Positions 5,079 to 50,700 of a stretch of DNA of 64,000 nucleotides are shown here, in pieces; within the stretch, counting starts at the first letter, position 1; every line of letters starts with the position of its first letter. A program made the translations under genes and the position numbers. Source of the DNA: Haliclystus octoradiatus (lineage: Eukaryota > Cnidaria > Staurozoa > Stauromedusae > Haliclystidae); assembly GCA_916610825.1 (NCBI GenBank), contig OU744448.1, positions 12,376,436 through 12,440,435 of the forward strand, given 5' to 3'. The notes beneath the pieces were generated by a model, which ran no database searches, was not told the origin of the DNA, and was given only the letters and a program-made list of their open reading frames with translations.

Positions 5079-5142
5079 CAGGGTCCGACAAAAGGTTCAG
5101 CCTTCTGGAATCCTAGAGGCATTCAGTATTTTCTTCTGAATT

Positions 5143-14598: not shown

Positions 14599-17500
14599 TC
14601 AATCATCTCGATAACCAATCAGTAAATACGTTGTGACATTACCCTTTCCTTTCACCATAATTGTCCCTCGTTCTTCAAAAGTGTAAAATTCTTTCAATAA
14701 TAACATTGTAGCTTCACTAACTTGTATTCTGTTAGATACCCCAGTTGTATCCATACGGCTAGCTAAGTTAACAGTATCTCCCCATATATCATACTGAGGC
14801 TTCATAGTACCAATTACACCTGCTGTAGCAGGACCAGCATTAAGACCACATCGTAAATGGAATTTAAATCCAAGCATGTTCTCGTTAAATTCATTCATCG
14901 CACTTTGCATAGCCAAGGCAAAATTAACTAAATCTTTAAGATGGTGATGTCTATACGATGTTGATGATTTATCCAATTGTTCTAACGCTGTAGCTGGGTT
15001 GAGTCCTGATGCTGCCATATAGGTTGTCCCATTAACAGATTTAATTTTTTCTACATCTTCAAATTTTAGAATTTCTTTATCAAAATCAGCAACAAGCTCA
15101 TGTAAAATACGAATGCATTCGATTCCACCTTCGAAATTCTCTTCATAAAATTCATCAAAGTTAACAACAGTAGCAAATAAAACTCCAATAGTATCATAAT
15201 TTTTTGAACAATGACTTGTGTATTTTAATTGTTCTGAAACATGACGCGGAAACATATCTTGAATAAGCCAATCAGCAACTTGTTTCTGTTCAAGTGATTT
15301 ATTCTTTTGTTCAGCTGCTTCTTTGTCCCCATAAAAATTAACACGTACGCCTTCCTCATGGATACGATTCATAACAACAACTAATAATACTTGTAAACAT
15401 ACAGTAACAATGATATCATATACATTAGTTTCTTTGAATTTAGGTACTTTTTCTTCAACGCATAAACCTTGTGGCAAGAATGCTAACACAAACACAAATA
15501 CAGCTGCCCATACAAATGCTAATCCTGTTTTCATAAATGATGATAATTGTGTGAACGAACAAAAATGTAATAAAGCAACTGTCATTAAACTACTAAAATG
15601 GGATAGCTCAGTAATGCTCCATCCATTAGTTGTACATGTTTGAAAGCCAGAGAATACCAATACCATCGGCAAACACATTAACGTAGCACCATACAAATGC
15701 GCACTAAACCAAGGAGATGAACAGAGATAACGCAGCGAACGAGATTTTGTAGAAGAACAGTTACTTCGATGTAGATACCCATTATAAGGTGATGATGGAA
15801 CTTGTTGGCTTTCAGATGCAAATATTTCCATTTGACTAGTAGATTCACTATTTTCTCTTTGGTCTGAAGTATGTTTTGAACATGAACAATGGCTAGGAGC
15901 AAATCTGCAGCATTGAAACAGCAACACCAATGCAATAATATTAATACAAATTGGCGTTATTACAATCAGTGTTACTGGAGGAGGCGAGAATAATAAATGA
16001 CTGGCCAATAAGACAATCACAAGCATGACAGCTGATGTGAGTACATCAAAGAAGAAATGAACTTTTGGTGAAGCGAATGTAGTAACCTTTGGATTAAGCT
16101 TAAATCCTTTGAAACCTTCATTTCGATATTTCCTTTCCAGCCCACGATCCAGAAACTGAAGAGTTAGACTTGACAGTGGAGGATTAAAGAAGTATTCTTT
16201 TTGGATCTTCTTCTCATGCATAAGTTTGACCAATTGTTGATCATTAGAGGCACGTAACGTATCTCGCATCAGCGCCTCATTCAAGGCTAGTCCACGGTTG
16301 AGATTCAGTTGTTCATTAAGTCTTTGGAATGGAAGTGGTGTCTTCATTAATTGCTGTGCAAGTCGACTTTGTGGCCTTGGAGATGGTGGTGATGGTGATT
16401 GTGTCAAGTATCCAACTTCAATACTGTCATCTTCTGCCAAGTCTAGTGTTTCTGTGGCCGTTGTTGACAGTGGATGTTTCGCTTCATCTGTGACTATGAC
16501 AACAACATTTGAAGCAGCTGCTCCCTCATAGTTTGATATGCTTGTTAACGATGCCATACTTGACAAATGTCCGTTAAGTGAAACTTTGCTGTGAGCTGCC
16601 ATTCCAACCTTCATAGCTTGTTTTAGGCTAGAGTTTGAATCTCTTCTCTTTCTATCAATCTGCCAAGGCTTATATGCGCTCAAGTCACACTTACGTTTGA
16701 CGATAAAGTATGTTTTTGATGGTGTACCATCCTGCGTCAATGAAACACTGTCACCAGTTTCTACTTCATATTCATGATTTAAGAAATTCAAAGTCGTTTC
16801 TGTAATGTGAACTCTCCCCGGCTTTCCAGCAGCTTCCATTTTATTTGCAAGTGTGACGTCATTCGACCACACATCAAAGCGTCTTCTTCTATCGCCAACT
16901 ATACCACATAATACACTTCCAGTATGAATCCCCACTCTCATATCAACATCTTCACCTTTCTCTTCTCTAAACTTTTGAATTTCACTAACAATGTCAAGTC
17001 CCATTTCAACACAGCATATAGCATGGTATGGTGTTTTTTCTGGACAGCCAGCAACACAATAATAACAATCACCCAACGTACTGATTTTTTCACAATAATT
17101 AATCTCGGTTAGTTCATCAAATTTACCAAAGAGACTATTTAACAGATTAACAAGTGTTTCAGCTGATTTATTAGATGACATCTTTGTGAAGCCAACTATA
17201 TCAGCAAATAGTATACTAACATTTTCCATTCTGAACATATTATATGGACGAAACGGTAACTTAGGTTCTGATGATGCTACTCTGAATTTTTTAAGTCCGT
17301 CACTGATCAGCCAATCTGCAACAGTCTTGGGCATAACAGATCTTATCATTCTGTCTTTCACCTGTTTCTCTATTTCTAAATCTCTTTTAGCAACAACACT
17401 TTGACCAACACGCCAGAATGTACTACGTTGACGTACTTGTGCCATGAAAAATATAGCCAAACCCATTAAATGAATGCACACATGCAAGAGAGAATAACAG

Positions 17501-18198
17501 AATATAGTTTTCCATTGTCGAGGGTCGTTAGTTTTCAAAGCAGCGACAGTTTCATGTACAATAGAAAATGAAATTGCAAATAATAAACAGACGTACATAG
17601 GTAGCGCAGGAAGCATGGTATAAATAAGTAGGATGATACATGTTGCTACTGTGAATCTAGCAACGTGTGGAAAATCACTTTCTTGAACAATAAAAAATGA
17701 TAAAATATCACCAATCGTGTAGAGGGCAGAGAATGCCAGTGATAACAAAAAGGCTTCTTTAGGTTTACGGTATAAATTAGCAAATTTAGTAATAATTAAA
17801 AAGATCACAGCTACAACTGCTCCACCAGATGTTCCAGTAATCAAACGAATTGATCCAGTATCACTCCGTTTACTAGCAGTAAAACCAAAGAAAACAGATA
17901 AAATAACACAGGCAAATGCCATAAATACCACGCCGGTTTGGAATCGATGTCGATCGACATTTACAGAAAAACGTTTAAATTCTTTTTCTAAAATATCAGA
18001 ATCAAATGTTGGTTCCCATAAGTTACTCGATGCTCTTTCAAAGAATAAAGGTAGAACTCCTTTCCTCTCTCTTTTATCAACAGTTGAAGAAAAAGAAGGC
18101 TTATCTTTCGATACAACACATACTTTGAGTATGCTGTTACCATTACCAGCTTGTTTGCTTGAGTTTAGTGATGGATCATCAATAGCTGAAAAATTCAT
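14599..18198 (-). CDS. ADCY9: Transmembrane adenylyl cyclase, type 9-like, intronless, 1199 aa
   Basis: This membrane enzyme makes cyclic AMP from ATP and is normally driven by G-alpha-s. Two six-helix membrane blocks alternate with C1 and C2 catalytic domains. C1a has both metal-binding aspartates, in FADIVGF (about D333) and LGDCYYC (about D377), 44 residues apart as in other cyclases. C2a has the adenine-binding lysine (K1053) and YDIWGDTVNLASRMD for adenine and transition-state contacts, so it looks active. The N-terminal LPLFFERASSNLWEPTFDS and RSTFWRVGQS stretches match ADCY9. The long serine/proline-rich C1b region lies at about 490-650. The protein stops right after C2a, so the autoinhibitory C2b tail of mammalian ADCY9 (1353 aa in human) is absent. 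One extra residue follows K1053 (K-S-V-N-G-T-T-Y where the usual spacing is KTIGSTY). An uninterrupted 3.6-kb frame is unusual for this family. Confidence 0.92.
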   Translation of the reverse strand: MNFSAIDDPSLNSSKQAGNGNSILKVCVVSKDKPSFSSTVDKRERKGVLPLFFERASSNLWEPTFDSDILEKEFKRFSVNVDRHRFQTGVVFMAFACVILSVFFGFTASKRSDTGSIRLITGTSGGAVVAVIFLIITKFANLYRKPKEAFLLSLAFSALYTIGDILSFFIVQESDFPHVARFTVATCIILLIYTMLPALPMYVCLLFAISFSIVHETVAALKTNDPRQWKTIFCYSLLHVCIHLMGLAIFFMAQVRQRSTFWRVGQSVVAKRDLEIEKQVKDRMIRSVMPKTVADWLISDGLKKFRVASSEPKLPFRPYNMFRMENVSILFADIVGFTKMSSNKSAETLVNLLNSLFGKFDELTEINYCEKISTLGDCYYCVAGCPEKTPYHAICCVEMGLDIVSEIQKFREEKGEDVDMRVGIHTGSVLCGIVGDRRRRFDVWSNDVTLANKMEAAGKPGRVHITETTLNFLNHEYEVETGDSVSLTQDGTPSKTYFIVKRKCDLSAYKPWQIDRKRRDSNSSLKQAMKVGMAAHSKVSLNGHLSSMASLTSISNYEGAAASNVVVIVTDEAKHPLSTTATETLDLAEDDSIEVGYLTQSPSPPSPRPQSRLAQQLMKTPLPFQRLNEQLNLNRGLALNEALMRDTLRASNDQQLVKLMHEKKIQKEYFFNPPLSSLTLQFLDRGLERKYRNEGFKGFKLNPKVTTFASPKVHFFFDVLTSAVMLVIVLLASHLLFSPPPVTLIVITPICINIIALVLLFQCCRFAPSHCSCSKHTSDQRENSESTSQMEIFASESQQVPSSPYNGYLHRSNCSSTKSRSLRYLCSSPWFSAHLYGATLMCLPMVLVFSGFQTCTTNGWSITELSHFSSLMTVALLHFCSFTQLSSFMKTGLAFVWAAVFVFVLAFLPQGLCVEEKVPKFKETNVYDIIVTVCLQVLLVVVMNRIHEEGVRVNFYGDKEAAEQKNKSLEQKQVADWLIQDMFPRHVSEQLKYTSHCSKNYDTIGVLFATVVNFDEFYEENFEGGIECIRILHELVADFDKEILKFEDVEKIKSVNGTTYMAASGLNPATALEQLDKSSTSYRHHHLKDLVNFALAMQSAMNEFNENMLGFKFHLRCGLNAGPATAGVIGTMKPQYDIWGDTVNLASRMDTTGVSNRIQVSEATMLLLKEFYTFEERGTIMVKGKGNVTTYLLIGYRDD

Positions 18199-20046
18199 CT
18201 TGATATATAATGATGCATAGAGTTAGCTCAAGACTTGGTCAACATTTTTTCATCGAATATGAATTCCATAGTAGTATAGCAGTAGTCATGTAAAATTGTA
18301 AATGAACGAAATAATTCTTTTCGGAAGAAATAAATTAGAAATTAAAACAATATTTTGTGAATAAATAACACTACTGAAAGTAAAAATCCAATTTAACGAT
18401 TGAAATTCTAATAGAAGATGTTCACATATAAAATGAAAATACTTTCTTTGCAGAATAACTTCTGTATTCTGTAACTATTTGACCATGATAACATCATTGG
18501 ACAAGTCACGAAGGTTTTCGTAAAAAGAAATGTGAATTGAACAAAAAGCTTTAGCAGCAGGAAATCATCTTGAGCATAAAATGGCCGCCTTTGTCTGATA
18601 AATATAAAGGAATTTAATTGGATAATATTAATAGCGCAACGGTCACAACCAATCAAATTTCATCTATCAATAACATTCGCACTTATTTTAATTCAGAATT
18701 CAGAATCAATTTTTTCAACAACTCTCATCTATTCAGAGTCCTTTCGTAAACTTAAACTACAAATACTGTAGTTAAAGAGATGTAATGACCCCTTCATTTA
18801 AAATTGAATCTTTTAAATGCTTTTATTTTCATTAATCGTGAGCGATAAGATTGCGTGAGCACTACTTTCATAGCTCTTTTATTGCAAAATAAAACCGTCG
18901 CAGTTTAAAAATAGATTTAATCATGTAATTTACATTTAAGGGGGCAATACTACGGTCGGGCGGATATTACTCGATGAACAGTACAATTGTTTTATTAATT
19001 AATCAAAACAAATATATTGGAAATGATAATCACAATTTGTTCGTGGAAATTTCGTATAAGTATTGTAATTAGGGGATCACAACTCCTACTTGGTCCACCT
19101 GTAAATCCCAATATTGACCCCTGGTTGACCCTCGTCCCTACCTTTTTAATCATGATTTAATCCTTACATAAATCTTACCAGAAACAATAGCGAGACTTAA
19201 GTATTGTAATATAATTGATTGATTTAATAAACTTCACAATGCGATGTGTACTTTATATATATTTATATATGTATAATTAATTTGAACAATTACAAAAGAT
19301 CTAAACTATAAAAGTCTGCAATAACCAGCTTGGCCAGTCACAATTGATTCAACACTGGAGTGGTTTCATAAAAATTGAAAATATTGAAAACAGATGGTAG
19401 GTATATCAGCTACTTCTCATTGGAATTAGTCATCCTATAAATGAGAGATTGAACAGCATTGAACAACACCGTCTACAAGTAGAGCTTTGTAACAATAAGC
19501 TTTCAATCAAAATTAATAATCCCTTTGTTCACTTATTTTGCTGATTTTCTTACCTGATTCATTCTGAATGATGGATTTAACAATTATTTCTAATGGATGT
19601 TGCCCCTGCTATTTCAAGGTACGGTATTGCAACGCAGTGGCGGACACTTGCTTGGATATTTGGGGTTGATGTATGATCTAATGCAGGCATGCTCCCTTAA
19701 ACATTTATTATGATTTTCAGGGAACAATATGATCTAGCATACCTGAAAGCCCTCTGATCTTACTCTCAAGAGTAAGAATGTTTCATTAATTATATTAATT
19801 TGATCGTGATCTCCACAAAAATCTTGCTTATTTTGCTATGTTGGATAAAATTACTTGGATGGGGTATGGCTGTGTATACGACTGCCGCAAATGTTGTGAG
19901 GGGTGAGTTATTATTGAACATGCAGATTTCTCAAGTATTGGGCTCTATGACGTGGCAATTGATTATGCTGCAAATGCTTTTCCTGTATAGTGTCATACAA
20001 ACAACAATCCTATATTAGCAATTGAAACATATATCATTCTACATAC
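18199..20046. other. Intergenic region between adenylyl cyclase and coronin-7
   Basis: No convincing gene. It should hold the adenylyl cyclase promoter (minus strand, near 18200-18800) and the 3' end of coronin-7. A final tiny coronin exon may lie in the right half, because the exon at 20047 ends in a strong donor, but I could not place it. Short frames at 18408-18656 and 19800-20018 have no recognisable content. Confidence 0.35.
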
Positions 20047-26000: not shown

Positions 26001-29000
26001 GCCCAACTGATACGAGCACCTCTAGTCCCTGGCAATGAAGCACCAGTCTAAAAATACAATAGAAACATAAACATTAGATGACTATGAATATGTAGGGATC
26101 AGACATATAGATAAAACTACATATTTATTGTGTGATTTATTAGGGTGTTGACCCTACAACGGTTGCAAGGAAAGAGAGAGACTACATATTACAGTTGATT
26201 ATTTACATGAAGTGATAAACGGAAGTTACAATATATATAAGACAACAAACAAACCATTACAAATACAACAAAGGAATATTAAAACATAATAGTAACAAAT
26301 AATATTACCGTCACAGCAGAAGGATTGCTACGAGGATCAAAAATTCGCAATTGCTTATCCTTGCAAGCAGTAACGAGGAATTGTCCATTAGGATGCCATG
26401 CCATAGCTATTATCTGAAGAAAAAAGAGTGACAAATGATTGAATTGGCAAAAAATTGAGGTGTTAATTGATATTTTTGAATAACATTTATAAAGAAACTG
26501 TAAATGACATACTGATTCAGGATGTTCTTCTAATGTAATGACATCATCTTCATTTTCAACATTCCAAATTTTAACCATTAAATCATGTGATGCACTTGCC
26601 AAAACACCAGAAGCATTAGGGTGGTAGCGCACCAAATTGATTTTGTTTTGATGACCTAGAGAATACAGAAGCATTAGGGTGGTAGCGCACCAAGTTGACT
26701 ATGTTTTGATGACCTAGAGAATACAGAAGCATTAGGGTGGTAGCGCACCAAGTTGACTATGTTTTGATGAATACAGAAGCATTAGGGTGGTAACGCAACA
26801 AGTTGATTATGTTTTGATGACCTAGAGAATACAGAAGCATTAGGGTGGTAACGCAACAAGTTGATTCTGTTTTGATGACCTAGAGAATACAGAAGCATTA
26901 GGGTGGTAACGCAACAAGTTGATTCTGTTTTGATGACCTAGAGAATACAGAAGCATTAGGGTTGTAGCGCAACAAGTTGATTCTATTTTGATGACCTAGA
27001 GAATACAGAATCATTAGGGTGGTAACGCAACAAGTTGATTCTGTTTTGATGACCTAGAGAATACAGAAGCATTAGGGTGGTAGCGCAACAAGTTGATTCT
27101 ATTTTGATGACCTAGAGAATACAGAATCATTAGGGTGGTAACGCAACAAGTTGATTCTGTTTTGATGACCTAGAGAATACAGAAGCTTTCTATAATGTAT
27201 AAAGAAAAGATACAGCTGAAAATTCTCAATAAAAAGTCTACATGAAAGTATTGTTGTGATTTTAAACCTAATGCAGTACTAAAACATTATCTTTAAGGAT
27301 GATGAATGAGAATAACTTTGCACAAGTTTTCAATATGACAATGAGGTAAATTGCATTATTTATAAGTCAAAATCTTGTTTCTGAAATTCCGAGTTAAAAA
27401 GTATGACAACGCATTGGTCGACAAGCTTCATTTTAAGAGCCAAGCAATCGAGATGTTGGAAGATATACTCAAAGAGCTAGATATATTTGTTTATGGCTTG
27501 TTTACTCAATGCCCTACTGTAGTATTCTTATATAATTAGACCTAGACTAGACTTGTTACAATTACCAGACCTCTTACACATAAATCACCAGACACACTAA
27601 GATGGCTAACTAACAACACGTGTCTCGTGGCTCTGTCTTTTATTTTGTCAAATTATAACTTAAGAACATTACACCTACCAGTATCAGTAGTGTCTACATT
27701 TTGAAATAAAACGCGTCAACCACTTGTTCACAAGAACTACACTCACCTTGAAGATCATAAGTTGGGTCTGAAAGAGTAGCCTCAAGTCCATTTTCTGGTA
27801 CTTTCCATACTCTGATGTGGCCATCATCACATGCTACAAATAAAAGGTGTTGATGTATCACAAGGACATAGAAATAACTATACAAACATTGACATCTCAT
27901 ATCACATCTCCTACTCACCAACAGCAATGTTATGCTCATTAAATGGGTCCATGGTAAAGTCAAGAACAGTGGATGAATTTTGAATGACAGGTAAAGCTCC
28001 ATCAGCTAATCTGCCAGGCTGAGATAGCTGAACAACAAGAAGAAATTATTATTCACAAACATACTAAAAGAAGTGTATAGAAATATGTTTACAATAATTT
28101 CATTGCGAACCATAAGCAGGGCAAGATTTAGTTGTAAGAAGAATAAGTAAATGCTTTAGTCCCAGAGAAAAAATAGGTCTTTCAAAATGAAAAACATTCT
28201 AAACTGCATTTTAGCCTGTTACACTGTATTTTGACTATTTTCTATTCTATATGTTGGATAAATGCAGGGCAGTTTGATCTCTAGGCAATATAAGCTTGTC
28301 CTTTGGTCCAAAGATTTTGAATGAGCCCATTTTAAACAATTAGAGCAAAAAAAATTTCAAAAGAAAGTTACAATAACTAAAATATTAAATATTAAATTAC
28401 TGGAATACTGTACTAGGAAAGTCAAAACAAGCTTAGAGAGATCTTCTGAGAGAAGCATATTTTCAACAAATGCTGCGGGTGCATACCCCATACCCCTTTC
28501 ATCCACTAGAGAAGCAGGTCCAAAGCCTGAGAAATACCACAATAGACTCAATAGTGCTTTAGGTCCCAAAAATCTAGAAACGCTTTGAAGGATTATTCAC
28601 TTAACTTTTACCGGTAATTAAGTTTAGTAACTTTGAAGTTGCATTTATCAGAACCTCTTGAAATTGGTTTATAACTATTTGGCCAAAAAATGGTTTTAGA
28701 AGATTCAACTAAGGACGTTGATGGTACAATGCATAAGGCTAAAAATAAACAAGTGCATTGCATTTGATGTTAAAGTGTATATCTTGGCCATTTTTTAAAA
28801 ACTGTGTGAAAAGTAAGAAAAGTAGCTAGCAGTATCGGGATGAACAGTTAAATTTTCAATAAAAAAAGCAAAAATATTCCAACATTTTTGTTGCCTATAG
28901 CAATTAAAACATAGAATGTGGGCAAAAAATCACGGTCAAACCCTCTTGTGGATAATAAAATTGTTCCTTTTTTGGTTTCAAATAGTCGGACACGAGAATC

Positions 29001-32000
29001 TCCAAAATGCCATGTTTGGGGTCAATTTTGACGGGGAAAGAGTCGTGCTGTGTAAAAACTCAACAACAACATGTACGAATAAAAATAAAAGTTCTATCCA
29101 AATCCGTTTTTTAAAAAAGACGAGATATACACTTTAATCGACGAGAGAGTGGCATTATACAATGTCACGCACCTTGAATACAGCAATCTGTCCACCAGGT
29201 CCAGCAAGTGGCAATGCAACAAGATCATTCTGTGCTTGTATACCATCACATTCACCAGGAACTGATGTACTTAAATTTTTAAAATTATCTATGCGTAATG
29301 TTTTGTGACATGGCGTTCCTGTAAAGTAGCGGTACTTTGAAGTTCGGGCTGCACTAAATTTTCCAATTTTGACAGGTTTACTTATTGCTTGACCTGAAAT
29401 GATGATTACGATAACATTAGACAGATATTGGAACATCAAATCCAAATTAGTAGGAAAACAAGGATTCTGATAATTTCCCTCATAAATAAAGGGCAGAAAA
29501 AGGGCAAATATTGGAGTTTGGAAGGTGATAATATAGTCGAAATCCGTCAAATAAAATTCTGAGTTGAAAGAAAGGAATAAAAAATATATGCCTATTTGAC
29601 CAGCAGTCGCAGCCATTATGGATTCAACTGCGCGTGCGCAGACAGTCGAATATGCCATTCACTCCATCACGTGTTTCACTCGTCCCAGGGTTAGGGTTAG
29701 GTTTAGGGTTCGATCACGTGATAACCACCCGGTTAGGGTTAGGGTCTGATCAAGTGATAACCACCCGGTTAGGGTCCATCACGTGATAAACACCCGGTCG
29801 TGGTCAAATTCATTTCTGTCTCATGGGCTTTCGTTGGTTGGCGTAGGCCTAGCTCATTCGGAGTGCGTCTGACTAGCATGCAGGTCATGCTGGTTTGAGT
29901 CCAGGTCGTTCCAGATGTTTAATTTATTTTCATTGTTTATATTCCAAAATGTTTGGAAGTTACTGTTCGTTCATGATACGCATGCGTTGGTATCCATAAT
30001 GGCTGCGACTGCCGGTCAAATAGTCACAGCGTAACAAATAATTAGATCTGATTAGAAAGAAAGTCAGAATAATCATGTGCAAATAGAATGGATACTGTGA
30101 AATCTATGTAAAAGTCAGCTAATAATGAAATATATATGAAGTTCTGACTAAAAACAGGATGAACCCAATAGAATATCCACGGAGATGAAGTATTTTGAAA
30201 CCATATTACATGCTTACTTCTTGTTGATTTGATTCGCAAAATGTAGGTTGGAAAAATGAGAAATCATATGTTGCTAGTTTTTGCACTTTGGTTCATCATT
30301 AGACCTTAAATGCCACCGGTTCTTGGTTACCTTTCACGACGTTATCATTCTGAAAGTAATTTTTTACTATATATGGCCAAGAATATGGTATAGAGTAGAA
30401 TATTGGCTTACTTTTCAAACGGAAATCTTCAGGTGGTGCCTCCATAGATGCTTTTGATGGTCCAGATGGTTTATGAACTGGTGCAGCCTGTAAGGTTACA
30501 AAACGTAGCGATGTAGACCATGTCAAATAGTATTTACAATGTTATCTATAAAAAATGCGAAACAAACCTTGGCAGCAGTACCCTCAGTCGTTGATGCAGT
30601 TGTAGAACTAGAACTAGCTACGCTTGCAACTGGTTTTGGTTTTGACTTTCCTCTTAATTGATCACTTGATGGCTGTAGCTGGATAAATGTTAGCTGAAAC
30701 AATTTGTGGATTAGATGAAATTAGGTCCAGGGTTAGGTATTGATTGTAGAATATATATATTTTTTTTTAACACTTACGGGTTCATTTGCTCCTGTCAACC
30801 ATTGTGCTGCTGTCATTGAGGCCTTACCAGACAATGTTTCAGGATAGACATCAGCATGAAAATCAATGTAAGACTAGAAAGGGAATAAAATTAAAAGCAA
30901 ATCAAAGTACAGGCAGGTTACTGTTCAACATTTGTTGCTACATCTGACGAAATACGTAACAAACAACAAATACAACTGTCAATCAAATATATGCATGACG
31001 ACTGCAGTGTCATGATTTAAAGGATGAATTTTAATTCGACTTGATGCAGATTTAATTTTTAAAATAAAACAGTTGGATATCAATACTGGCTACAAAATTA
31101 CAGCCCCGCGAAATAGCATATTTGAACAAGGTAACTATCGAGTATCTAGAAATAAATAAGTGTTTGTTGTTTATAAATTTCATGGAATTAAATTTTTAAG
31201 ACTCTCATATAAAATTGATTCAAAAACATTTGTGAATCGCTTGTTTACTTTTTGAAATTAGCAAGGGAACTTTCCAGCGTTCACTATGAGAAAATAGTGA
31301 ACGATTGAGCAACCAATCAGAATGCAGATCATCAAATAGTACCCTAGCCGGTTTCGACTAAACAATAATATGTAGCACATCTGAAAGAAATTGAATATAT
31401 ACAATTAGACATGTTTGAACATTTACCTTTCTTGGAACAATGTAGCTGATAGGAATGACAGCGTTTTTAGTAAGCTGCATCAACCGGTTGACTTCACAGT
31501 CCATTAAATTCACTGCTCGTTTAGGGATAGTTGTCATACCAACAGTCTGTGTATCGATATTTTCTTTATTAACTGAAATGTAAGTCAATCAAAAGCAGGT
31601 TGAAACTGTTTCAAGTCAATCAGTCCGTTGAAAAAGGTTTTTTGAATACATGATAATTATGACGAATGATGGTAAAGAATAATTAAACATTCCACTAAAT
31701 TGAAGTTTCATTAACCACAATTTCTTTTCTTTTCTTTGCAAGTTTACTAAGATCAAGATTTATTAAATCTGCTGGAATGGACCTGCACTGTAGCGGCTGA
31801 GAACAGTAACATGAGCATTTACAATCATTGCTTTAAGGGAAAAGAGGAGTGGTCCTCTGGAAATGAAAGAGTGGTACGGGTGCATTCGGAACGGCGATGC
31901 CGACTCAATTACTTACAATCTCGCCAAATAGTATTGTACTATAAGGAAAACGATTAGATCACGCTGATTGGCTTAGAGCTATGACGCCAAATCACCATAT

Positions 32001-35000: not shown

Positions 35001-38000
35001 CTATACTTGATCTGTGACGATGTGATATCAGCAATTTCAACAGTATCATGACATGCAATGGCCAAAATCTACAATGAAGATGGCATCAAAAGGTAGAGAC
35101 TAGCTACCTTCTTAGCTCGAGTATAGGTAAATCAACCTCTTTTTCCAAAATAGTATTGTCTAAAAAACAATTTCGACTTATATTCGAGATCTCAATTTTT
35201 ACATCATTTTTTACCTAGCAGCATGTGCGATAACAATGTAACAAATTGTATTACTTTCAAAGAAATACACAGAAATACATAAAAGTGGTGGTTGTATGAG
35301 TTGTTGAACCATCCCTCATTTTGACAGGTATTTTGGATTGACTTATCCTTGCATGTTACATTTTCTAGATTATTGGATCTCAAAATTAAGGGCAAATTCA
35401 CGCTAATACGGTAATACGTCTTAGTTGTGTGTTCAAGTGCACACAAAAAACAAACTGAGTAGACCAAATTGTTTATCTAAGCCAAATTGAGTCTATTGTA
35501 ATAAGCATATGTTATATTATTTTTATAATAATCCAAACTCACATCATCTGCAGCTGTATTGAAGGCAATATTCTCAATCCGACACTAAATTGGAAAAAAA
35601 ACGTCCCATCAATTGAAAATTTTAACAAGAGCTGTATTAAAAGTGCATATTTCTCTCTATATAAGATGAAATACAGTTATATTCACATATGTACAATAGA
35701 GTTGAAGTTTACTTGAGTAATTGTTGGAACTATAGTGGTCAAAGGTGTGGTGATATTTTCAGTAAGTCCACCATCAGGTATTCTCCAAATGCTGACCTTG
35801 GAAAAAAAGGAAAGGAAAATTATACCAGGAAAATCAAGTACTTTAGGCATAGAATTCAAATTCCTTGATGTTAAAATATTTTAGCGGAGATTCTCATCAT
35901 TCTTATAGCATTTTGGGAGATTTACAAATTATTGCAGATTGTCTTATATTAACTTTCCTGACCCATTCGCATTTACATAATCTTGAAGGATTTGCAATTA
36001 TGTGAACTGGAATATGTTTGATTACTGATAATAGGTGGATAAATGTGTAAACAAATATTTAGTTCTGAAGTACCAACTGTGTAGGCCTAATGTATTCGAT
36101 TCCCGCTGAGAGCAGCGAAATACCGCGTTAACATTATTGTTATTACAACATCAAAGTTTTCAATTCATGATCGATTTGCAATTTTTTCTGAATTATAAAA
36201 TTATAAATATGATATGATAACTTTAAGAACTAGCAAGGAGCTTAATAATCTAAGTAAATAGTTGACACCTGCTAATAAGTAGGAATATACCAATGTCAGA
36301 TAAACCTTACCTCTCCACAGTAAGACCCTGTTGCGAGAACATCATCATGGAATGGGCTGAAATCCATATCTGATACAAACTCTAAAATAAATCAGTTGAA
36401 GATGAAATAAGTATAATCACACATGGGTTAATACCCCAGAATGGAAAAAAAAGAAACAGGTCATTTGGAAGCGAGTGTAAGACCAGGCCTGGAACATACC
36501 AGCATTCACTTCTTTTTTTCTCGTAAATTGTAAATTGCAAATAAGAAAATGGAAAATTGCTTACCCTTGTGAGCATATATATAAGGCATTGTCCGATCTT
36601 TTCTCCCTATATCACCAAGGCAACAGACACCCACACCACCTCCCCCTATAATAAATTCAAATGAAATTCAATAGTTAGATTTGATGATGATGTTGATGCA
36701 GCAATGGAGGCATCAAATGTAATAGTCTTACCACCAAGGTTAGTGTTGAAAGCAGCATATTTACAGCTAGATGCAATGTAGTTACCATTGGATGTCATTA
36801 ACGACCCAATAGGTACATCAAACAAAGTTTGCTGCAATTGGAAAATAAAATAAAGATGATTGCTATGCTAGGTTGTATATATAGCCTACCATTATACAAG
36901 TACTACAGCTGCCAAGCAGCAGTAAAATGCCTTAAGATATGATATCACCCTGTAGTTTTCCTTGGTCAGAGCAAGGAATGACAAATGGCATTATACTTAA
37001 TTGAGATTTCGAATTCCAATATGATATTAACTAATAGAATGTAGATAATTCCTAATGTTCAATGCTGTGAAGCAGTAACTCGGGATGACATCACAATGGG
37101 ATAATAGCTTCAACAAGACCTTCTGTCCTTCCTTACCTATTACGTCACATCAACGTAAATCATCATATTGGTTTCCTGACGTGGACAATTGCTTACAATT
37201 TTTGGATTTGCTACCAATATGAAAATAGCAGTACAATCCGATACATGAAAGATTTGTTACTTGATCTGGAGTAGAATTGGAGAATTTGTAGGATAGAAAG
37301 GAACACAAAAATCACAACATGGATAATAGGGTGGTCCAAAAAAAGCCAAGTATCTCCGAAAAAAAATTTCGTAAGCTTTTCTGATCCATGCATAGCTTTA
37401 TTTCAATAGAATAACGTTTAGGGGTGGCGCATCTCAGTTTAAATTTATATCGTTTCGTGTTACTTCCCTTTCCTTCTTCACAATCTAGCGGCGTTAAATC
37501 AGTTTGCCTCTATAAGCGATTAATTTCGTTCATGTCAAAGGGTTTGTGTGGTTAAATTTGACACAAACAGGAAGTATCAAGTACATGAAAAAAGTAAAAT
37601 ATCTTTGCAATAGGAAAAATTTGTTCATTTATGATTTATATTTCAATAAATCTACAGCATCAATAATTACTTTGCATTCTCAAGTTTTCAAGTTGATTAA
37701 TAATACAGTATATAATCTTTTCACCACATTGATAACTCATCTTGACCTAGGTATATAACAAAGTCAGTTCCTTGTTCGCTCACTGAGCAGTACTGATGAA
37801 GGCTAATGGCCAGAAACATTTAATTGTCTGCTGCTATGCATGTCTCAATTGCTCATGCGCAATTTTAAGCACTATCGACTTGGGATGTACCTATACTATT
37901 TGCGATATGCATTGCACACTACTTCGGTAGTTTGAGCACTCTGGTATGACACAGATGTTTTTTTTGATGTGGTGGATTTTTCACCACATTTACTAACTCA

Positions 38001-41000
38001 TCTTGACCTAGGTGTATACCGAAGTCAGTTCCTTGTTCGCTCACTGAGCAGCACTGATGAAGGCTAATGGCCAGAAATATGTACTTGTCTGCTGCTATAT
38101 TATATATATATAGTAAACAAATTGTTGTAGCATTTTCTTCGTTTTTTTATCCCAGAGCGCTTTACAATTATCATGTAAATTAAATTGAATATAGTAAAGC
38201 AGAGAAAGTAGCTATAAATGAGCAACTTGGCATTTTCTACAATCAGAATAATATGATTCAACAACAACAAACAATTTTACAATTAAACATACCAAATGAT
38301 CAATGTTCTGATTTTCATTGTATAGCGAACGATTTCGGTTAACAAATGATCATAAATTCATAGTCATCAATTGAACAGTGTTGATGTTAATCTAGTCCTG
38401 ATTCTTTCGTAAAATTGTAAACGAGTAGGCTACGCCGTCAAATATTTTTTTTCACAACTGTAAAGTTTTCAAGTTGTGATTGAGTTGTGATTATTTATGA
38501 ATTATGAATAAGTGGAAAAATTCCAATTTCCAGTGGCGGCTCGTGGTATAAATAGTTGGTGGGGCAGGAGGGTTGGTGAGGGTGCCGAAGGCCCCCAAAT
38601 TTACTAGGGGGTCCCGGGGCATGCTCCCCCTGAAAAATTTCAAATTTGAGGTGTCGTAACCCTATCTGTGGCGTGATATAAGCTTGAAATGTTCACAAAA
38701 ATAAACTGTATGATGCTCTGCAAAAATTCAGATTTAAAAAAGAACTCCTAAACTGTCTACTTAAATATTACTGTAGTAGGCTACTATCTTTATTGTATTT
38801 AATTTAGCTTATAATTATTTTCGAATCAATTTTGTAAATGGCTGTATGTAAGTGGAATTACTGTTGTGGTAATTCCCTGTATTTTCCTGTCGTATACAAT
38901 TGATTTGATGCAAATGGATATTTGTAAAATTCTCACTTCAGTGAATAGGGCAAACTGTTTTCTGCCCCAAAACGCTATTGTTTCGCGATAGTCGATCATG
39001 CGCACTAAGTGCCAAAGCCTCAAAAATAAAGCATATTTGGGGCATAGAGAATTTTGACCTGAGAATGCCAGACCATTGTCAGAAATAGAAACGATATTGT
39101 AAACATTTTGAATGAACCGCAATATGGTTATATAATAGGTGTCTAATGTCTATTCATTCGGTGGAGGGCTTTGTCTGCAGAGTCTGGCACGCGTCCTCGC
39201 AAAATAAAAAAGTTTGGCTGAAAATATTAGCTGTATACTATTATTTTAATTATAACAAAATTGGAGATTTTATTTTTGTTTTACAAGCTAAATAATGACA
39301 AAGTTGAAAAGGAGTGATTTACGAAATTTATTTGTGGGTCGTTGCCCCGGTTGCCCCACTGTTAGAGCTGCCACTGCCAATTTCAGTCGAAGATATGCAA
39401 CATATTAATATTATTTGTCCAAAGAAGAAAATCAGAAATTATCATTATCACGAGTTTTAAAAGTAGCATTTTCAAAAATTTGTTAAAACTCGAAAGGTAA
39501 ACGGATTTTCACTATTTGTGCTGTATGATTGTGATAAGCATACAAAGTTTTGATTTCACATAGTTTTTTTATGATAAATTGTTTTGAGTAAGTGGTAAAG
39601 AGCTCAGAATGTTTAGACTTGGATTGAGCCAATTCCATAACCCACATCTTCCACAAAGCGGTCCATCAGACGAACAAGTTTGTCTACATTAAAATGGTAT
39701 ATATATATATATAAAAGGTTCGAGGAGAAACTTTATTCATCTAATGTTATCTACAAACTAAATACTGATTATAGTAATTATATGAATTCAAAAATATCTG
39801 TAATACTTATTTTAATTGTAATGGGTGATACTGAAATATGGCCTTTTGCATTTAGTCGTTAGGAAAAGGGCAAAGTCAGAATGATAACTCGTAAATATAA
39901 ACATGCGCAGTTTATATATTTTCAGAACGAAAAAATAAAAATACATTTCTATTAGAAATATGTTCCAATTTACACCAATAGCTTTTGTTTCAAAAAAACT
40001 TGCAGTATCTTGCGAATCCGTGAAAATCGTAAGTAACACATTTTACGGCCCCAAATTCCTGCGGTTAAACAAAGACTGGTACTGACGTACAAAATCGTAA
40101 TGAATCGTACAGAATCAGCGATCGCTGCTCCACCCCTAAACATTGTCCTATGAGAATGAATCTTTACATGGAATGTTTTTAGACCCTTTGACATGAAAAA
40201 AGTTTACAAAAAAATTTTCAGAGAAACTTCACTTTTTTTTGAACACCCTAATGGGTAACTAAACAATCTACATTGCAGCGTTTAATTCATAGCTTTATTT
40301 AAACAACGTGTCAGGAAAAAAATTAACCAGATATGAAAGACAAACTTTTAAACGAGTTTTCCTACATTTCAGCTATTGTTTCTTTGCTTGATTAATGGGA
40401 TGAATAATAGAACAATTATCAAACTCGTTATTTTGGGTGACATTACATTGATAATTATCCAGCCAGCCTACAACCAGCTCTTTTTTCACTCTCCACCAAT
40501 GTTGCCTGCTGTTTGTTCAAGAAGCACGCAGCCGAGCTATTATCAAATTATAGAACCAATTTCACTCACGTTGGTCTTCTGTCATTTGATAGAGTCCATC
40601 ATTATAACAACTACAGTATGCTTGACTTTTACTTTGATAAAACGGATCCAGAGATTCTGAGATCTGGCATTGAGCAAACACATGATTCTCAAGCGTTTGA
40701 ATACAATGAGGAGACATTAATATTTGCTGTGGGCCTCATCTGTGTGACAACAAACCCGATGAAATTAATTTTGTTGTTGTCAACATCAAATGATTATCAT
40801 GACTGTTTTGATTGAATCTTTAAATGGTTAAATGTTGACTTGATTATACCTATCATCACTGGTCAATAATCCTTCAGGTTGATGGTGGGTGAGTGCTATC
40901 TAAAAGGCCTTATCTCATTCATAGACTACTCATTAAGAGATTAATCGTGAACCTTTTAAACAACAATAGGACTTTATTAAAAGTATTTTAAAAACAGATT

Positions 41001-42533: not shown

Positions 42534-45500
42534 ATAGTCCAGTCAATCTAGATCGAAAAAACACGGAACCCAGGACAAATTGCAACACAAGCTTTTTTTA
42601 CAGATTCTAGAACAGAATTTAACGCTTAACAACATACTGAAAATCGAGAAAAATCGAGGTGGCGGAACATTATTTGCATTTAAAGTCACAAATTATTAAC
42701 CCTTTCTAAAACGCCATTATGCCTCCATCTAAACGTCTGCGCACAGGCTGAGCGCGACATGTTTTCGGAAAACTGTCAAATTTTGATCGAAAGACAATAC
42801 AACAAGATGGTAGACATCGTTCGCGTATCGTTCAGGTTTGCGTATGATTTTTTATGGTTTAATGGTGAAATGGTACACTTTCCTCCTAATTTTGGTACTC
42901 AAAGATATTTGATTCGAAGAAACTCTCTCACGAATTAATTCATAATGGAATGTTATCAGTTCGAAAAGTCTCCCAGTGTTATGTTGCAGAGGAAAACAAA
43001 GGATGACAGGCATTATCAAGGACAAGGTTCAAAGCAAAATCTGTAGATATTCAATAGGGCCTAACACTTATTGTATTGGCTTTCTATTTTCCAAAATCAA
43101 GGTCAGTATTTTAATTAAAAGTAAGTGAAACATATTTTTAATGAATTATATTCAATTATTCTAATGTTTGTTCGATATGACGATATGTAGCATGATCATG
43201 AATTCATGATGTGAAAATAAAAATGATCATAAGGATTCAGTTCTCAGTTGTTTGTTAAGACATAGTGGTTTAGACAGGGTGCAAGACTCCCAGATATTTG
43301 GATGTAAATGCATGTACAATTGCCAATTCCTATGGGCTCTGCTGTAACAGTATTACACATGATAGCATCAATTCTGCTGAGTGATCCAAATCAGGACCAA
43401 TAACATTTGTTGGCCTATTATCTTTATTTCTGACATAGTTTGGCAGCATATTAATGCACCCCGTATAACAGTGCACACAACTGTTGGCCCCCTATATGCC
43501 ATGGCAATAACGTATTTACGTACTCAATCTGTACAATTTCACGCATAGCATAATGAAAGTTTCAAATTTCATGCATTCAAACGAAAGAGCTTTCTTGAAA
43601 TTGATTCAATTCAGACCTATCTGCTTTTAAATCGTATTATTAATATTTAGCTGAACATGCAAAGTTTGAATGGTGAACAAGGTGTTTGCAAATAATAAAA
43701 ATTTTGCATGATAAAAATAGGAAAACAGGGTTGAAGTCTTAAAATGGGGTCTGGAGATTCACCCCCTTGAGAACTTTTTGAATTCTGGCGTCCCAAATAG
43801 GGAATTTTGCTATGATTTTATCTGAAATATTCTGTAAAACTTCATGTTTTTGTTTTTATATAATGCAAAAATCATCGATAACGCAATAACGTAGATAAGA
43901 ATGCCTATTCACGATTTCACAGACAAAATTTAGGGCAATAACACGTCCTGATGAGCCGTAAAAGGCCCCAACTGTTGCTCAACCCCTAATTTACAAACAT
44001 TGCATGTCTGGTATTGTACTACCTAGATATCTTTTGAGCAATTGAGGATGTTCTTGCTATCTTCTGTGGACCCCTAGACCACACATGTTAATTATCACAA
44101 CAATGGTTGAATGTCTCTTCAATCTATTTTGAATGGTTTTATTAGAAATATACATCCATTGTATTCAACATCTATATTATTTTATAATCATAGATAAAGT
44201 TTATGATGGTGAAAGTTATGGACTCTTGGACCACACCTATTATACTACTGAGGGTGATGAGATGTAACTATAATGCCTATGAGATGGTCTACTTGATTTA
44301 TATATATATATATATAAAATGTACCTGTAATGCCTATGGGATGGTTTACTTGAATTATATATACATTCTATGTAACGTAGATATCATTTTATGATGTCAG
44401 CAGAAATGTTCCTGTTCTTGATATTGGAATCTTGGACCACATCTATTATACTACTGAGGGTGATAAGATGTGTCTAATATGCATATGGGATTGTCTACTC
44501 GATTTATATTTATATTCTATACAACCTAGATAGGATTTTATGATGTCAGAAGTGTTCCTGTTCTTGATATTGGACTCTTGGACAACACCTATTATACTAC
44601 TGAGGGTGATTAGATGTATCTATAATGCATATGGGATGGTCTACTCGATTTATATATATATATTCTATGCAACCTAGATATGATTTTATGATGTCAGAAA
44701 TGTTCCTGTTATTTGTATTGGACTCTTGGACCTCACCTATTATACTACTGAGGGTGATTAGATGTACCTGTCATGCCTATGGGATGATCTGCTCGATTTA
44801 TATTTATATTCTATACAACCTAGATAGGATTTTATGATGTCAGAAATGTTCCTGTTCTTGATATTGGACTCTTGGACCACACCTATTATACTACTGAGGG
44901 TGATTAGATGTACCTGTCATGCCTATGGGATGGTCTACTCGATTTATATTTATATTCTATACAACCTAGATAGGATTTTATGATGTCAGAAATGTTCCTG
45001 TTCTTGATATTGGACGCTTGGACCTCACCTATTATACTACTGAGGGTGATTAGATGTACCTGTCATGCCTATGGGATGGTCTACTCGATTTATATTTATA
45101 TTCTATACAACCTAGATAGGATTTTATGATGTCAGAAATGTTCCTGTTCTTGATATTGGACTCTTGGACTACACCTATTATACTACTGAGGGTGATTAGA
45201 TGTATCTATAATGCATATGGGATGGTCTACTCGATTTATATTTATATTCTATACAACCTAGATGATTTTATGATGTCCGAAATGTTCCTGTTCTTGGTAT
45301 TGGACTCTTTGACCACACCTATTATTCCATTGAGGGTGATAAGATGTATCTAATATGCATATGGGATAGTCTACTCGATTTATATTTATATTCTATACAA
45401 CCTAGATAGGATTTTATGATGTCAGAAAGGTTCCTGTTCTTGATATTGGACTCTTGGACCACACCTATTATACTATTGAGGGGGTTAGATGTATCTGTGA

Positions 45501-46456
45501 TTCCTATGGGATGGTCTACTTAATTTATATATACGTTCTATCTAACCTAGATATGATTTTATGATGTCAGGAATGTTCCTGTTATTGGTATTGGACTCTT
45601 GAAACACACCTATTATACTACTCAGGGTGATAAGATGTATCTAATATGCATATGTAATGGTCTACTTGATTTATATATATATTCTATGCAACCTATATAG
45701 GATTTTATGATGTCAGAAAGGTTCCTGTTCTTGATATTGGACTCTTGGACCACACCTATTATACTATTGAGGGGGTTAGATGTATCTGTGATTCCTATGG
45801 GATGGTCTACTTAATTTATATATACGTTCTATCTAACCTAGATATGATTTTATGATGTCAGGAATGTTCCTATTATTGGTATTGGACTCTTGGACCATAC
45901 ACATTTCACTACTGAGGGTGATTAGACGCATCCTTATTTTGTACGGGATGGTCTACTTGATTTATATATGATTTATTTTGATTTTGCCTGGTAGTTAATT
46001 AATATAATCGTTAGGTACATCGATTTGCCTCTATTTGCAAGGAGCTAATGCGTGTTCTTATGCCAAGCCTCTTTTAATGCGCATTTGTTATTAGTGATAG
46101 TACAGTAAAAGTTCAGTAAATTCCCTAATATAATTTTTAGCCTCGTTATGGTTTTTTCTGTTATAATGATCAACTTATGATTTTTTTTCTGTAATTACAT
46201 TGTGTCACTGAGTGTGTTCTTCTTGATTGCGTACATTCTCTTATTTTTTGAAATATCGCTCAGTTTTTAGCCCTAAATGACACAGCCTCGCTTTCATGCC
46301 GACCATAACTAATTTCTATAAAATTGAGCACCTTCCGCCACTTCGATTTTTCTCGATTTTTGATATGTTGTTCAGCATAAAATTCTACCCTATAGTCCAT
46401 AAAAAAAGCTTGTGTTGCAATTTGTCCTTGGTCAAATTTTAGATTGACTGGACTAT
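42534..46456. mobile_element. 3.9-kb inverted-repeat element carrying a minisatellite
   Basis: ATAGTCCAGTCAATCTA begins the left end and, reversed, the right end. The arms stay alignable for about 130 bp, sharing GGACAAATTGCAACACAAGC and AATCGAGAAAAATCGA. The target duplication is unclear. Nothing in the interior reads as a transposase; nearly half of it is the 146-bp tandem array at 44196-45965. It sits upstream of, or within intron 1 of, the EF-hand gene. Confidence 0.7.
44196..45965 (+). repeat. Minisatellite, about 12 copies of a roughly 146-bp unit
   Basis: Units carry GATTTTATGATGTCAGAAAT, GTTCCTGTTCTTGATATTGG, ACACCTATTATACTACTGAG and CGATTTATATTTATATTCTA. The marker GGACTCTTGG or a close variant occurs about every 146 bp from 44219 to 45885 (12 times). 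The first interval is longer because of a local duplication around a (TA)n run. Several units are nearly identical, indicating recent expansion or homogenisation. The open frames within it are fortuitous. Confidence 0.92.
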
Positions 46457-47724: not shown

Positions 47725-50700
47725 TTAATCTTGAGTAATTCTGTTAGCACACATCCAAGTTCCATTTTTATGTGGAAAATGAAAAGATTTTGTATTGCCA
47801 TCATTGTTTTGATTCCATTGTGTTACAGGATCGACAAGACGATGAATAAATCTAAGACCACTAGTAGCACCATAAACATCATTTTCGTCTTTAACTTGAA
47901 CAAGACGATGACGTATCCATCGTAATAGATCCCATTGTTGTTTATCGTTAAATAAAAAACGATGATTACGCATCAAATCATTTGTCACAATAGAAACATT
48001 ATCATTTCTATTCAACATTAATTTTTGTTTTTGTAATTTTAATTCACTAATAACAGATGAATAAAGAACACATAGATCATCATCAACTGTATTACAAACA
48101 AAATAAGATAAATTATCATATTTTGATTGTAAAGTATGAAATAAATTACTATAAATATTTCTCATTTTACCATTAATTGGTCTTACTAAAATTAAAAGTA
48201 AATTAGCATCAGGTAGTAAGCCTTTAGCATGTGCTACAGATTCTTTTAAAACGTTTTCATTAAAAACAGGATTTTTATTAGAACGATTCCGTACACTACT
48301 AGCAATATTACTACCATCTACAACAATATGAAATGGTCCATATGTTGTAAGAATTCGTCTTAATCTCATGTAATCATTACGTGTTTCTTCTTTTAATTTA
48401 TATGAATCAAAATGAGACATTACTGTTTCAAATAGAGTATGGTCATAAAATGAAGATGGCTGACCAGTCAGTTCAAGCTGGGTCTTACAAATTGAGCATA
48501 ACCCTAAATTCATACCATATGATAGGGTGTTAACATTCCAATCTTTACTGCCAAATGATAAAAACCAATTTCGGATAGCATCACTTAGCTCTGGTGATAA
48601 CGTAATCCCAGCATCCCGCATGTATTCAAAAGCAGACTTCTTCATATCTGCAGCAAGTTCCTGTGTTGAAATGTGTTTATTAAGTTGAGCAGCACATTCA
48701 ATAACATTGCAGACAACATTCAAGTCAACAGAGTTATATTTAAATGTTGGTAGTGTCTTTTCAACAACCAACAGCTCATTAAATAGTTCCAATGCTTTCT
48801 CAAATTGATTGTCTTTTAACAGACCAGATATTAACGGTGAATACATGCGAGTATGTTTCAACAGACCTTGGTCCTGTAGAGACTGCAATAAACAAATATG
48901 AAAAATATTATTTGAAAATTTTAATCATGTAGGACCTATTCACAGCTAGTAATGTAAGGCTATGTGGAAAATGGAGCCTAACGTCACATGATCTACATGT
49001 TCAAGATGTAGATTCAATAAAACGCAACAATTATAATGTAATTTCTCAAATATAGGCTAAGCTACTTTTTGAAGTTTTTGAGTAACTTGTAGATTTGGTA
49101 ACTAGATCCTATCACATAGACCTTCATATAAATTTAAAATACTAAATATATGATGATGAACGAAGATGAGGACAAAGCTCTTAAATCTTAGCATTGATAT
49201 GTATTTGTTTGTAGATCATTGATTAGATAAAAATAGCCAAGGTAAATAATGAATTAATATTTGAATACAATTGTGATGTAGGCTAGGCTACATTTAATAT
49301 GTGATGCGAGAATGAAATTTTAGCCCTTCTCAATGTTCATTGTTTTGTTACTCGATAAATGGAGGTTCTAGGATGGAATATTGCGTTCAAATAAAGTAGG
49401 CATATTGTTTTAGATGCTAATCTAGAACACATAAAATTATTGATCAAATCAAGTTCGAAACTATAGGCTAGCCTATGTCCTTGACCGAGAAATGACATCA
49501 TAGATATCCATATTTTGATCCAATTTATTATTCCTCAGTCCTTCCCCTGTGAAATACAATTCCGGAGTCCACAAACAGTTCATGAACGTTAAAAGGCCAA
49601 AAAACTAATTAGGTCTGTTCATTACTCAAGATTTTGTTTTAATAAAGTATCAGCCTCATTCCATCACGGCCCTCATTTCCGCGCGGCGCTCCAGTGAGGG
49701 CCTAATAAAATTTAAGGTTAAAAGTGTGCCAGAAACCAAAAATATGGTGTGCCCAATCACAGAGCACCTTGATGTCATGTGAGTTACAGCAAGGTATTGG
49801 TTGGTCGGCCCATCGAAAAACAATACAACGAGGTGTAAATAAAAATTGAAATTTGCTGAATTCAGCTATTTTGAATTTCAACATTTTGTAAACAAACTGC
49901 TGAAGAAAACTTGAAACATCAAGTTTACGGTATTATTTTGGATCAAATTGGAGTAACAAAAATAGAAATAAAATATTACATTTACCTCGAAGAATTGTAT
50001 GAACATTATGAAGGTTTTTTGTGGGCATAGAATACAAAATAAAAGGAGAAAACATCTTGTTTTGACGGAGCGATTGTCATTGTTGGAAAATTGTAAGCAC
50101 TTGATGTTACTTGCGTGTTTTTCTGTTTCCTCCATGCCGACCCCGTAAGAATCTTACAAGCTAGCGGGCCAATCTGCCAAAGGGAAGGCGTGGAGGAGAC
50201 TAGACTGATAACGAAATGAAGAAGAACACACAGAAAACACGGAGGTTTTATATTGAAGAATAAACTTGGAAAATATTCAGATGAAGTTCTGAAGGAGAGA
50301 GAAAGTGATGAAGTTAAATGTGAACAATTAGAAAAGAAAGCGAGAAGATGATTATAGATGACACAAAGATTATGAATATGGTTTATGAATGTGGTTGTTT
50401 ATGGTTTAATATTGGTTATGGATTGTCGTTCTGGATTGTCATGAAGCTCTGAAGGAGAGAGAAAGTGATGAAGTTAAATGTGAACAATTAGAAAAGACAG
50501 CGAGAAGATGATAAGAAGATTATAGATGACATGAAGATTATGAATTGACACGAAGATTATGAATGTGGTTGTTTATGATTATATGGTTATGGATATTGGT
50601 AATGGATTGTCGAAGTATATTGTCGAAGTAAAGTTAACAATTTGTGTAATTGTGTTTAAATATTTTGTATGTTATGTTGATGTTGACAATTGATTTATGA

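Follow-up and report, generated by a model that had tools for sequence, protein, structure and literature searches.

The stretch considered here is a 64-kb segment of the Haliclystus octoradiatus genome (contig OU744448.1), hereafter the window, in which all coordinates are counted from the first letter and refer to the plus strand unless stated. It carries a pair of type I hammerhead ribozyme motifs opposite to a coronin-type gene (Table 1). A preliminary description of this DNA had claimed two hammerhead cores on one strand, 261 nucleotides (nt) apart, and both were recovered in place by reading of the sequence and by a descriptor scan. Judging from related copies elsewhere in the genome, the motif pair very probably marks an insertion of a metazoan retrozyme without long terminal repeats (non-LTR), which is present in hundreds of copies; the genes in the window are in keeping with an animal host. 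The hammerheads lie on the plus strand and the coding frames of the gene, namely the DUF1899 frame and WD40 repeats at 26282-26698, on the minus strand, as the same description had held. Its placement of the motifs in intron 1 of coronin-7 was not confirmed: a coronin-type gene is present on the opposite strand, and exon 1 was not located. An open reading frame piece at 36649-36867 had no Pfam match. The window copy's own transcription need not occur for the family to be active.

Table 1. Features of the retrozyme insertion and of the gene opposite to it in the window
Feature	Position	Strand	Remarks
Retrozyme insertion, 379 nt (1.45 units)	37718..38096	+	Ends set by comparison with genomic copies
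Upstream copy of 118-nt direct repeat	37718..37835	+	Arises because the insert holds 1.45 units; not an LTR
Type I hammerhead, copy 1	37786..37835	+	Predicted cut after C37828; stem III loop UUUAAU; descriptor scan
Stem III segment of copy 1, near-palindromic	37816..37827	+	Predicted self-duplex -4.2 kcal/mol; without a stable hairpin alone
One complete 261-nt unit, predicted cut to predicted cut	37829..38089	+	Monomer that two cleavages would release
Palindromic hairpin	37846..37864	+	Begins about 10 nt beyond the putative start of reverse transcription; one change from the family form
Downstream copy of 118-nt direct repeat	37979..38096	+	Partner of the upstream repeat
Type I hammerhead, copy 2	38047..38096	+	Predicted cut after C38089; stem III loop UGUACU; descriptor scan
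Stem III segment of copy 2	38077..38088	+	Predicted self-duplex -4.0 kcal/mol
A/T-only target DNA	38097..38112	+	Adjoins the 3' end of the insert; many other copies have comparable A/T-rich DNA behind them
Open frame with coronin-type DUF1899 domain	29158..29658	-	Pfam PF08953, E 8.2e-9; gene opposite to the insertion

The core letters are complete in both window hammerheads (CTGATGA, GAA, A15.1-U16.1 and C17). Stem II is formed by GGC/GCC with an A-A opposition at its base, and stem I by seven pairs, perfect in copy 2 and with one U-G in copy 1; the perfect downstream stem I and the A-A common to both copies had been noted before and are confirmed. Stem III has three pairs, which are A-U, C-G and A-U in copy 1 and A-U, U-G and A-U in copy 2. 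A purpose-written descriptor requiring the full core, stem II with at most one mismatch, three stem III pairs and at least six of the seven stem I pairs matched exactly these two hammerheads on both strands of the window, each with an open stem I and a complete core. Its application to 200 Markov-simulated windows, as a chance control, gave no match, and a scan of viral contigs with a 24-nt core gave none either. The 12-nt stem III segment forms no stable hairpin when folded alone and pairs with itself at -7.6 kcal/mol in the common family form, which by analogy with amphibian retrozymes suggests a dimeric hammerhead. The palindromic hairpin downstream of the cut is perfect in the family unit that was folded, where its predicted energy is -8.3 kcal/mol.

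The assembly containing the window comprises 261.9 Mb in 33 contigs. A 384-nt query found 106 matched places in 43 clusters, which is a lower bound, and the exact cleavage-junction word GTACTTGTCTGCTGCT occurs 608 times in the assembly, the reversed control being absent. On contig C1, 95 junctions make up 73 sites. A single junction is present at 60 of these and two at ten, and the last three sites have three, four and eight junctions respectively, so that 13 of the 73 sites carry two to eight. With the C1 ratio of junctions to sites, about 470 sites are expected genome-wide. Of 93 units measured from cut to cut, 90 have a length of 260-262 nt. Among the 136 hammerhead stretches that were extracted, some of them truncated, 110 share exactly the same sequence. 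The search for other genomic copies that had been proposed earlier has thus revealed a family dispersed over many contigs and bearing the signature of retrotransposition, namely a fixed 3' end, a variable 5' end and dispersed sites. The retrozyme family is real and belongs to a previously known kind of element, and the window copy is one member of it.

The window copy is 5'-truncated, since it starts at unit position 150 and stops at unit position 7, position 1 being the first nucleotide after the predicted cut. The animal-retrozyme reading that had been proposed for it is supported, with an amended layout: tandem type I hammerheads and a dispersed family were found, and the locus holds a truncated copy rather than a complete element with terminal repeats. 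The two 118-nt repeats are identical at 109 of 117 aligned positions (eight differences) and the full unit matches a family unit at 243 of 259 positions. On these grounds the copy looks like an old insertion, older than the multi-unit arrays with which it was compared (the irregular array L063m apart); some single-unit copies align worse than it does. Seen alone, the window copy resembles two repeats around a 143-nt body, as would be expected of a plant-type retrozyme with 118-nt LTRs. Plant LTR retrozymes are likewise self-cleaving non-autonomous retroelements; in the parts of PMC7229834 and PMC7761336 drawn on here they have type III hammerheads, LTRs, a primer-binding site and polypurine tract and 4-bp site duplications, whereas the element described here has type I hammerheads and no LTR arrangement. 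In addition, other copies of the family have starting points spread over the unit and contain from 0.07 to about 8.6 units, many of them less than one, which argues that the 118-nt repeats are not LTRs. The plant-type reading is extremely unlikely and was dropped because of the scattered 5' ends.

The genomic copies have a fixed 3' end, which lies 7 nt beyond the predicted cut, where stem I ends. In the first set of 45 arrays, nearly every array stops at TGCTGCTAT and is followed by (AT)n, (TTA)n or (ATA)n, the exceptions being L026, one of the two arrays at L041, and L002. Genome-wide, 140 sites end in TGCTGCTATATATATA, with none for the control, and 25 of the 73 C1 sites end in ATATATATA. 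Because the first set was biased by its query, 20 of the 48 C1 sites without ATATATATA were also read, L026 being passed over as already included. At 18 of these 20 sites the match ends after TGCTGCT plus zero to two matching letters, and at the other two it continues into the unit. The DNA following the 18 ends is mostly A/T-rich and includes some clear A/T microsatellites, others being mixed (L137, L143). No exact match was found to a word that places the 3' end at the cut itself, with eight A/T letters behind it. Since the 3' end is fixed and none was met at the cut, reverse transcription seems to start at unit position 7 on RNA in which the hammerhead junction is intact. An A/T run followed by similar sequence (AGCAACGAG or AGCAATGAG) was also seen in the 3' flanks of L046, L055, L059, L062 and L107, so that in some cases the target appears to have been an A/T run within another repeat.

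The 5' ends were placed for 102 inserts, 42 from the first set and 60 from a list of (AT)n 3' junctions. Two bridged duplicates (L041p_2158 and L061p_2698) and L063m, whose 5' end also falls at position 1, were left out of the 102. The underlying alignment used all 60 loci together with the 45 earlier arrays, an earlier run having aligned 56 of the 60. The 5' ends are scattered over the unit, with a peak at position 1, which accounts for 7 of the 102 (binomial P 1.6e-7); the next most frequent positions hold three each. Both sets contribute to the peak, with 2 of 42 in the first (P 0.011) and 5 of 60 in the (AT)n list (P 4e-6). The seven inserts contain one, two or three whole units between position 1 and position 7; their length of whole units plus 7 nt follows from the two ends and is not separate evidence. 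A genome-wide, alignment-free count of TATATA followed directly by the unit gave ten starts at position 1 and none at position 2, at the last position or at position 27. Four of these ten are already among the 102 inserts, and the count and its controls see one phase of the A/T run. Two further ends (L085 and L034m) lie one matching letter before position 1 and are outside the seven, and two of the 102 (L069 and L076) start at the control position 27, without TATATA before them in the phase counted. As no start was counted at position 2, position 1 is favoured as the true one. A second, weaker excess at positions 4-9 (7 of 102, P 0.009) may come from matching A/T letters there. The simplest reading of the peak at position 1 is run-off of the reverse transcriptase at a ribozyme-made 5' end, which would be a genomic sign of hammerhead cutting in vivo; alternatively, the enzyme may have stopped at a modified junction.

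Units within one array are nearly uniform. The unit difference has a median of 0 within arrays and is 1.9% between arrays; the mean unit differences include L063m. Units within each of 25 other compared arrays differ by 1.5% or less and those of the 26th, L063m, by 39%; all seven complete units of L032 are identical. In the 25 arrays with at least two complete units, 24 variable cases of array and column were found, of which 18 were private, five were shared with one or two other arrays and one with at least three. Ten columns separate subfamilies, and only one of them varies within an array (L061). These uniformity counts were made without L063m (two units) and L033p (one unit). Such uniformity fits the copying of a single RNA circle. 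Near-identical units arranged head-to-tail would also be expected of ordinary satellite DNA that spreads through unequal crossing-over or extrachromosomal circular DNA, with the hammerhead as an incidental passenger. This explanation is very unlikely, as the sites are dispersed over many contigs, the single-junction sites prevail on C1 and many inserts do not reach the length of one unit. Furthermore, the inserts have a fixed end opposite a scattered one, and a sharp 5' peak at the ribozyme cut would not be expected of a satellite.

The main rival to a circular template is a linear one from the same retrozyme, a multimer transcribed from a genomic array. Its partial cleavage would account for the 5' ends at position 1, and copying initiated inside it for the 3' end. 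Tandem arrays are present as a possible source of multimers, and the inserts of one, two or three units from position 1 to position 7 need a cleaved 5' end together with at least one uncleaved junction. Moreover, a Penelope-like enzyme has used unprocessed RNA in vitro, in the passages of PMC11167929 drawn on here. A linear multimer would require source arrays that were already uniform, whereas a circle explains the uniformity in one step, and we regard the linear template as possible but doubtful. For the circular template, a more specific course is offered tentatively: a Penelope-like reverse transcriptase may travel round the sealed RNA at least once from position 7 and be halted when the same hammerhead cuts the circle again ahead of it. 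If so, the hammerhead would act as the terminator of rolling-circle reverse transcription, and inserts would begin at position 1, span whole units and finish at position 7.

The retrozyme codes for no protein, the 379-nt insert and the 261-nt unit being too short for a reverse transcriptase with a GIY-YIG domain, and such genes are found elsewhere in the genome. Sixteen GIY-YIG matches were obtained, one of them in a 792-amino acid (aa) open frame with a reverse transcriptase in its upstream part (RVT_1, E 4.9e-11), whose motifs we take to resemble those of Penelope-like reverse transcriptases. A search with this reverse transcriptase piece, in which 150 of 842 first-look candidates were scored, gave at least 150 matches (all of those scored), many of them in frames of 815-829 aa; the Penelope-like label of the remaining matches rests on a reverse transcriptase similarity of at least 49%. 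At L051 the 3' ends of a Penelope-like element and of a retrozyme face each other across a single (AT)n, and retrozyme ends stand tail-to-tail across a short A/T run at L048 and L061. An inverted retrozyme end was seen in 6 of the 45 rows with enough flank, representing three loci. The target-primed copying with 5' truncation that is typical of long interspersed nuclear elements (LINEs) counts in favour of a LINE enzyme, and LINE-type remnants exist in the genome (RVT_1, window 6228-6617). The tail-to-tail ends and the meeting of ends at L051 speak against a LINE, as do initiation inside the RNA away from its 3' end, A/T-rich targets and priming on both strands. These last three features agree with the findings of Frangieh et al. 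(2024; PMC11167929), who have reported, in the passages drawn on here, that a Penelope-like enzyme starts internally on its RNA in vitro, prefers A/T-rich DNA and extends both strands. The enzyme is on this basis probably Penelope-like, the link being circumstantial, and a LINE reverse transcriptase is rather unlikely. A first view of L043 as a retrozyme end and a Penelope-like end within one microsatellite proved wrong, the Penelope-like piece lying about 1 kb upstream. Rfam found no hammerhead in the Penelope-like spacer L149, in which one stretch resembles a hammerhead to the eye and is not claimed as one. The Penelope-like elements have arrays of their own, with 13 head-to-tail reverse transcriptase copies at C8:5690590-5722734 spaced at exactly 2,629 nt, each with an 829-aa frame, and inverted reverse transcriptase pairs are present, for example at C2:28183636(-)/28186352(+).

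From the family, its fixed 3' ends, the A/T-rich targets, the 5' peak at the cleavage nucleotide and the uniform arrays, all read directly in the genome, a cycle can be proposed, in which transcription, the circularity of the RNA and the identity of the enzyme are the parts that we infer. Tandem copies elsewhere in the genome would be transcribed, and the RNA would cleave itself after C17, probably as two hammerheads paired through the near-palindromic stem III. The 261-nt RNA would then be circularised by a host ligase, as judged from what has been published on such elements in animals. The next step would fall to a non-LTR reverse transcriptase, most likely Penelope-like: it would open A/T-rich DNA, often an (AT)n run, and begin copying inside the RNA at a constant site, 7 nt downstream of the still intact cleavage junction. 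From a fraction of a unit to several units would be copied from one template, and copying would stop at a random point or at a ribozyme-made RNA 5' end. Taken together, the window copy is very probably a metazoan non-LTR retrozyme that was inserted long ago in 5'-truncated form. Its template would have been RNA with an intact junction, either circular or multimeric, and its enzyme probably a Penelope-like one.

Several observations weigh against this account. The covariance models, whose silence the preliminary description had named as refuting a retrozyme, were indeed silent: Rfam gave no hammerhead match in the window at gathering scores, the threshold of RF00163 (Hammerhead_1) not being reached, nor around the element up to E 10, nor for window copy 2 alone or a family-type copy up to E 10. 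A genome-wide RF00163 search also gave no match and is uninformative, its controls likewise not being recovered. In stem II the A-A opposition takes the place of the customary base pair. When three units were folded as circles, they were not clearly more stable than shuffles (z -1.18, -0.45 and -1.88); stem I was kept in two of the three and lost in the window unit, and the whole hammerhead was kept in none. Concerning the ends, an A/T flank can mimic the first T of the unit and makes single starts uncertain by one letter, and five rows of the 102 are poorly aligned, with scores below 0.75 (L112, L115, L090, L110 and L088). Owing to its 384-nt query, the first set of 45 arrays is weighted towards long copies and (AT) ends, the 60 later sites were selected by their (AT)n 3' end, and target-site duplications are indistinguishable from the simple A/T repeats that are often targeted. 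The depletion of changes in the 50-nt hammerhead between arrays is weak, with 3 of 43 distinct changes against 19% expected (P 0.05), and changes within arrays are about as frequent there as expected (5 of 21), both counts being made also without the window unit. A first depletion count (3/1950 versus 115/8229, P 9e-8) was inflated by shared ancestry and was replaced by the count of distinct changes; selection on the motif is weakly suggested. On the side of the enzyme, only 1 of the 16 GIY-YIG matches shares a frame with one of the 150 reverse transcriptase matches. Penelope-like ends were placed at three loci, two of them at an A/T repeat (L051, and L043 at its own) and one at none (L125), and only that at L051 is shared with a retrozyme end. 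The retrozyme unit and one Penelope-like spacer (L149) have only 9-nt matches in common (E 0.92). The retrozyme reading was kept because more weight was given to the accumulation of 5' ends at the predicted cut than to the Rfam result.

Cervera and de la Pena (2020; PMC7229834) have described metazoan non-LTR retrozymes in which, as here, type I hammerheads occur in tandem repeats of about 150-450 bp. Their GC content below 50% (0.418 for the window unit and 0.410 for one unit of L032), their many copies and the coexisting Penelope-like elements also recur here, and both lack the LTR arrangement, which is shown here by the scattered 5' ends (a primer-binding site and a polypurine tract were not searched for). 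In the same source the amphibian satellite-2 and axolotl retrozymes have a weak stem III, a near-palindromic loop and a dimeric hammerhead, and the same would be expected here by analogy. The comparison was made on structure and also shows differences: stem III here has three pairs and a 6-nt loop, and the unit measures 261 nt as against about 330-350 nt in amphibians. The A-A at the base of stem II contrasts with U-U in the axolotl Amex2 motif of that paper, and the motif here went undetected by Rfam. Three features, namely the fixed 3' end inside stem I, the A/T-repeat targets and the 5' ends at the cut site, are not described in the parts of PMC7229834 drawn on here, and the words 'microsatellite', 'AT-rich', 'truncated' and 'initiation' have no occurrence in its main text. 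Its Discussion proposes, and does not show, a return of animal retrozymes to the genome from a circular template by a LINE or Penelope-like enzyme. A literature search found no title linking animal retrozymes with microsatellites, which does not establish that these features are absent from print. Compared with the Penelope-like elements of PMC11167929, an internal start of reverse transcription downstream of the hammerhead, A/T-rich targets and a tandem arrangement are alike. The start lies 7 nt past the cut in the protein-less retrozyme, whereas in the lizard Penelope-like element of that account the start lies 111-118 nt, and the cut 26 nt, into the open reading frame. The hundreds of mappable insertions allow sharp predictions, with reverse transcription starting at position 7, run-off at position 1 and A/T-rich targets, and the insertion ends make the proposed life cycle directly testable. 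The 5' peak at the cut site could serve elsewhere as a sequence-only test of hammerhead activity in cells, including that of motifs missed by Rfam.

The window holds further repeats and genes. A tandem array of about ten copies of a 58-nt unit lies at 26608-27186, beside the WD40-coding sequence of the coronin-type gene. Another at 44319-45967 has a 146/291-nt unit in 11.3 copies, in which the descriptor found no hammerhead. The RVT_1 match at 6228-6617 (plus strand, E 9.3e-15) falls within element pieces at 5140-7617 on the same strand, which are presumably LINE-type. On the minus strand, part of a protein-only RNase P (PRORP) is encoded at 47728-48924, and a 1,207-aa adenylyl cyclase is encoded at 14602-18222 in a single uninterrupted frame.

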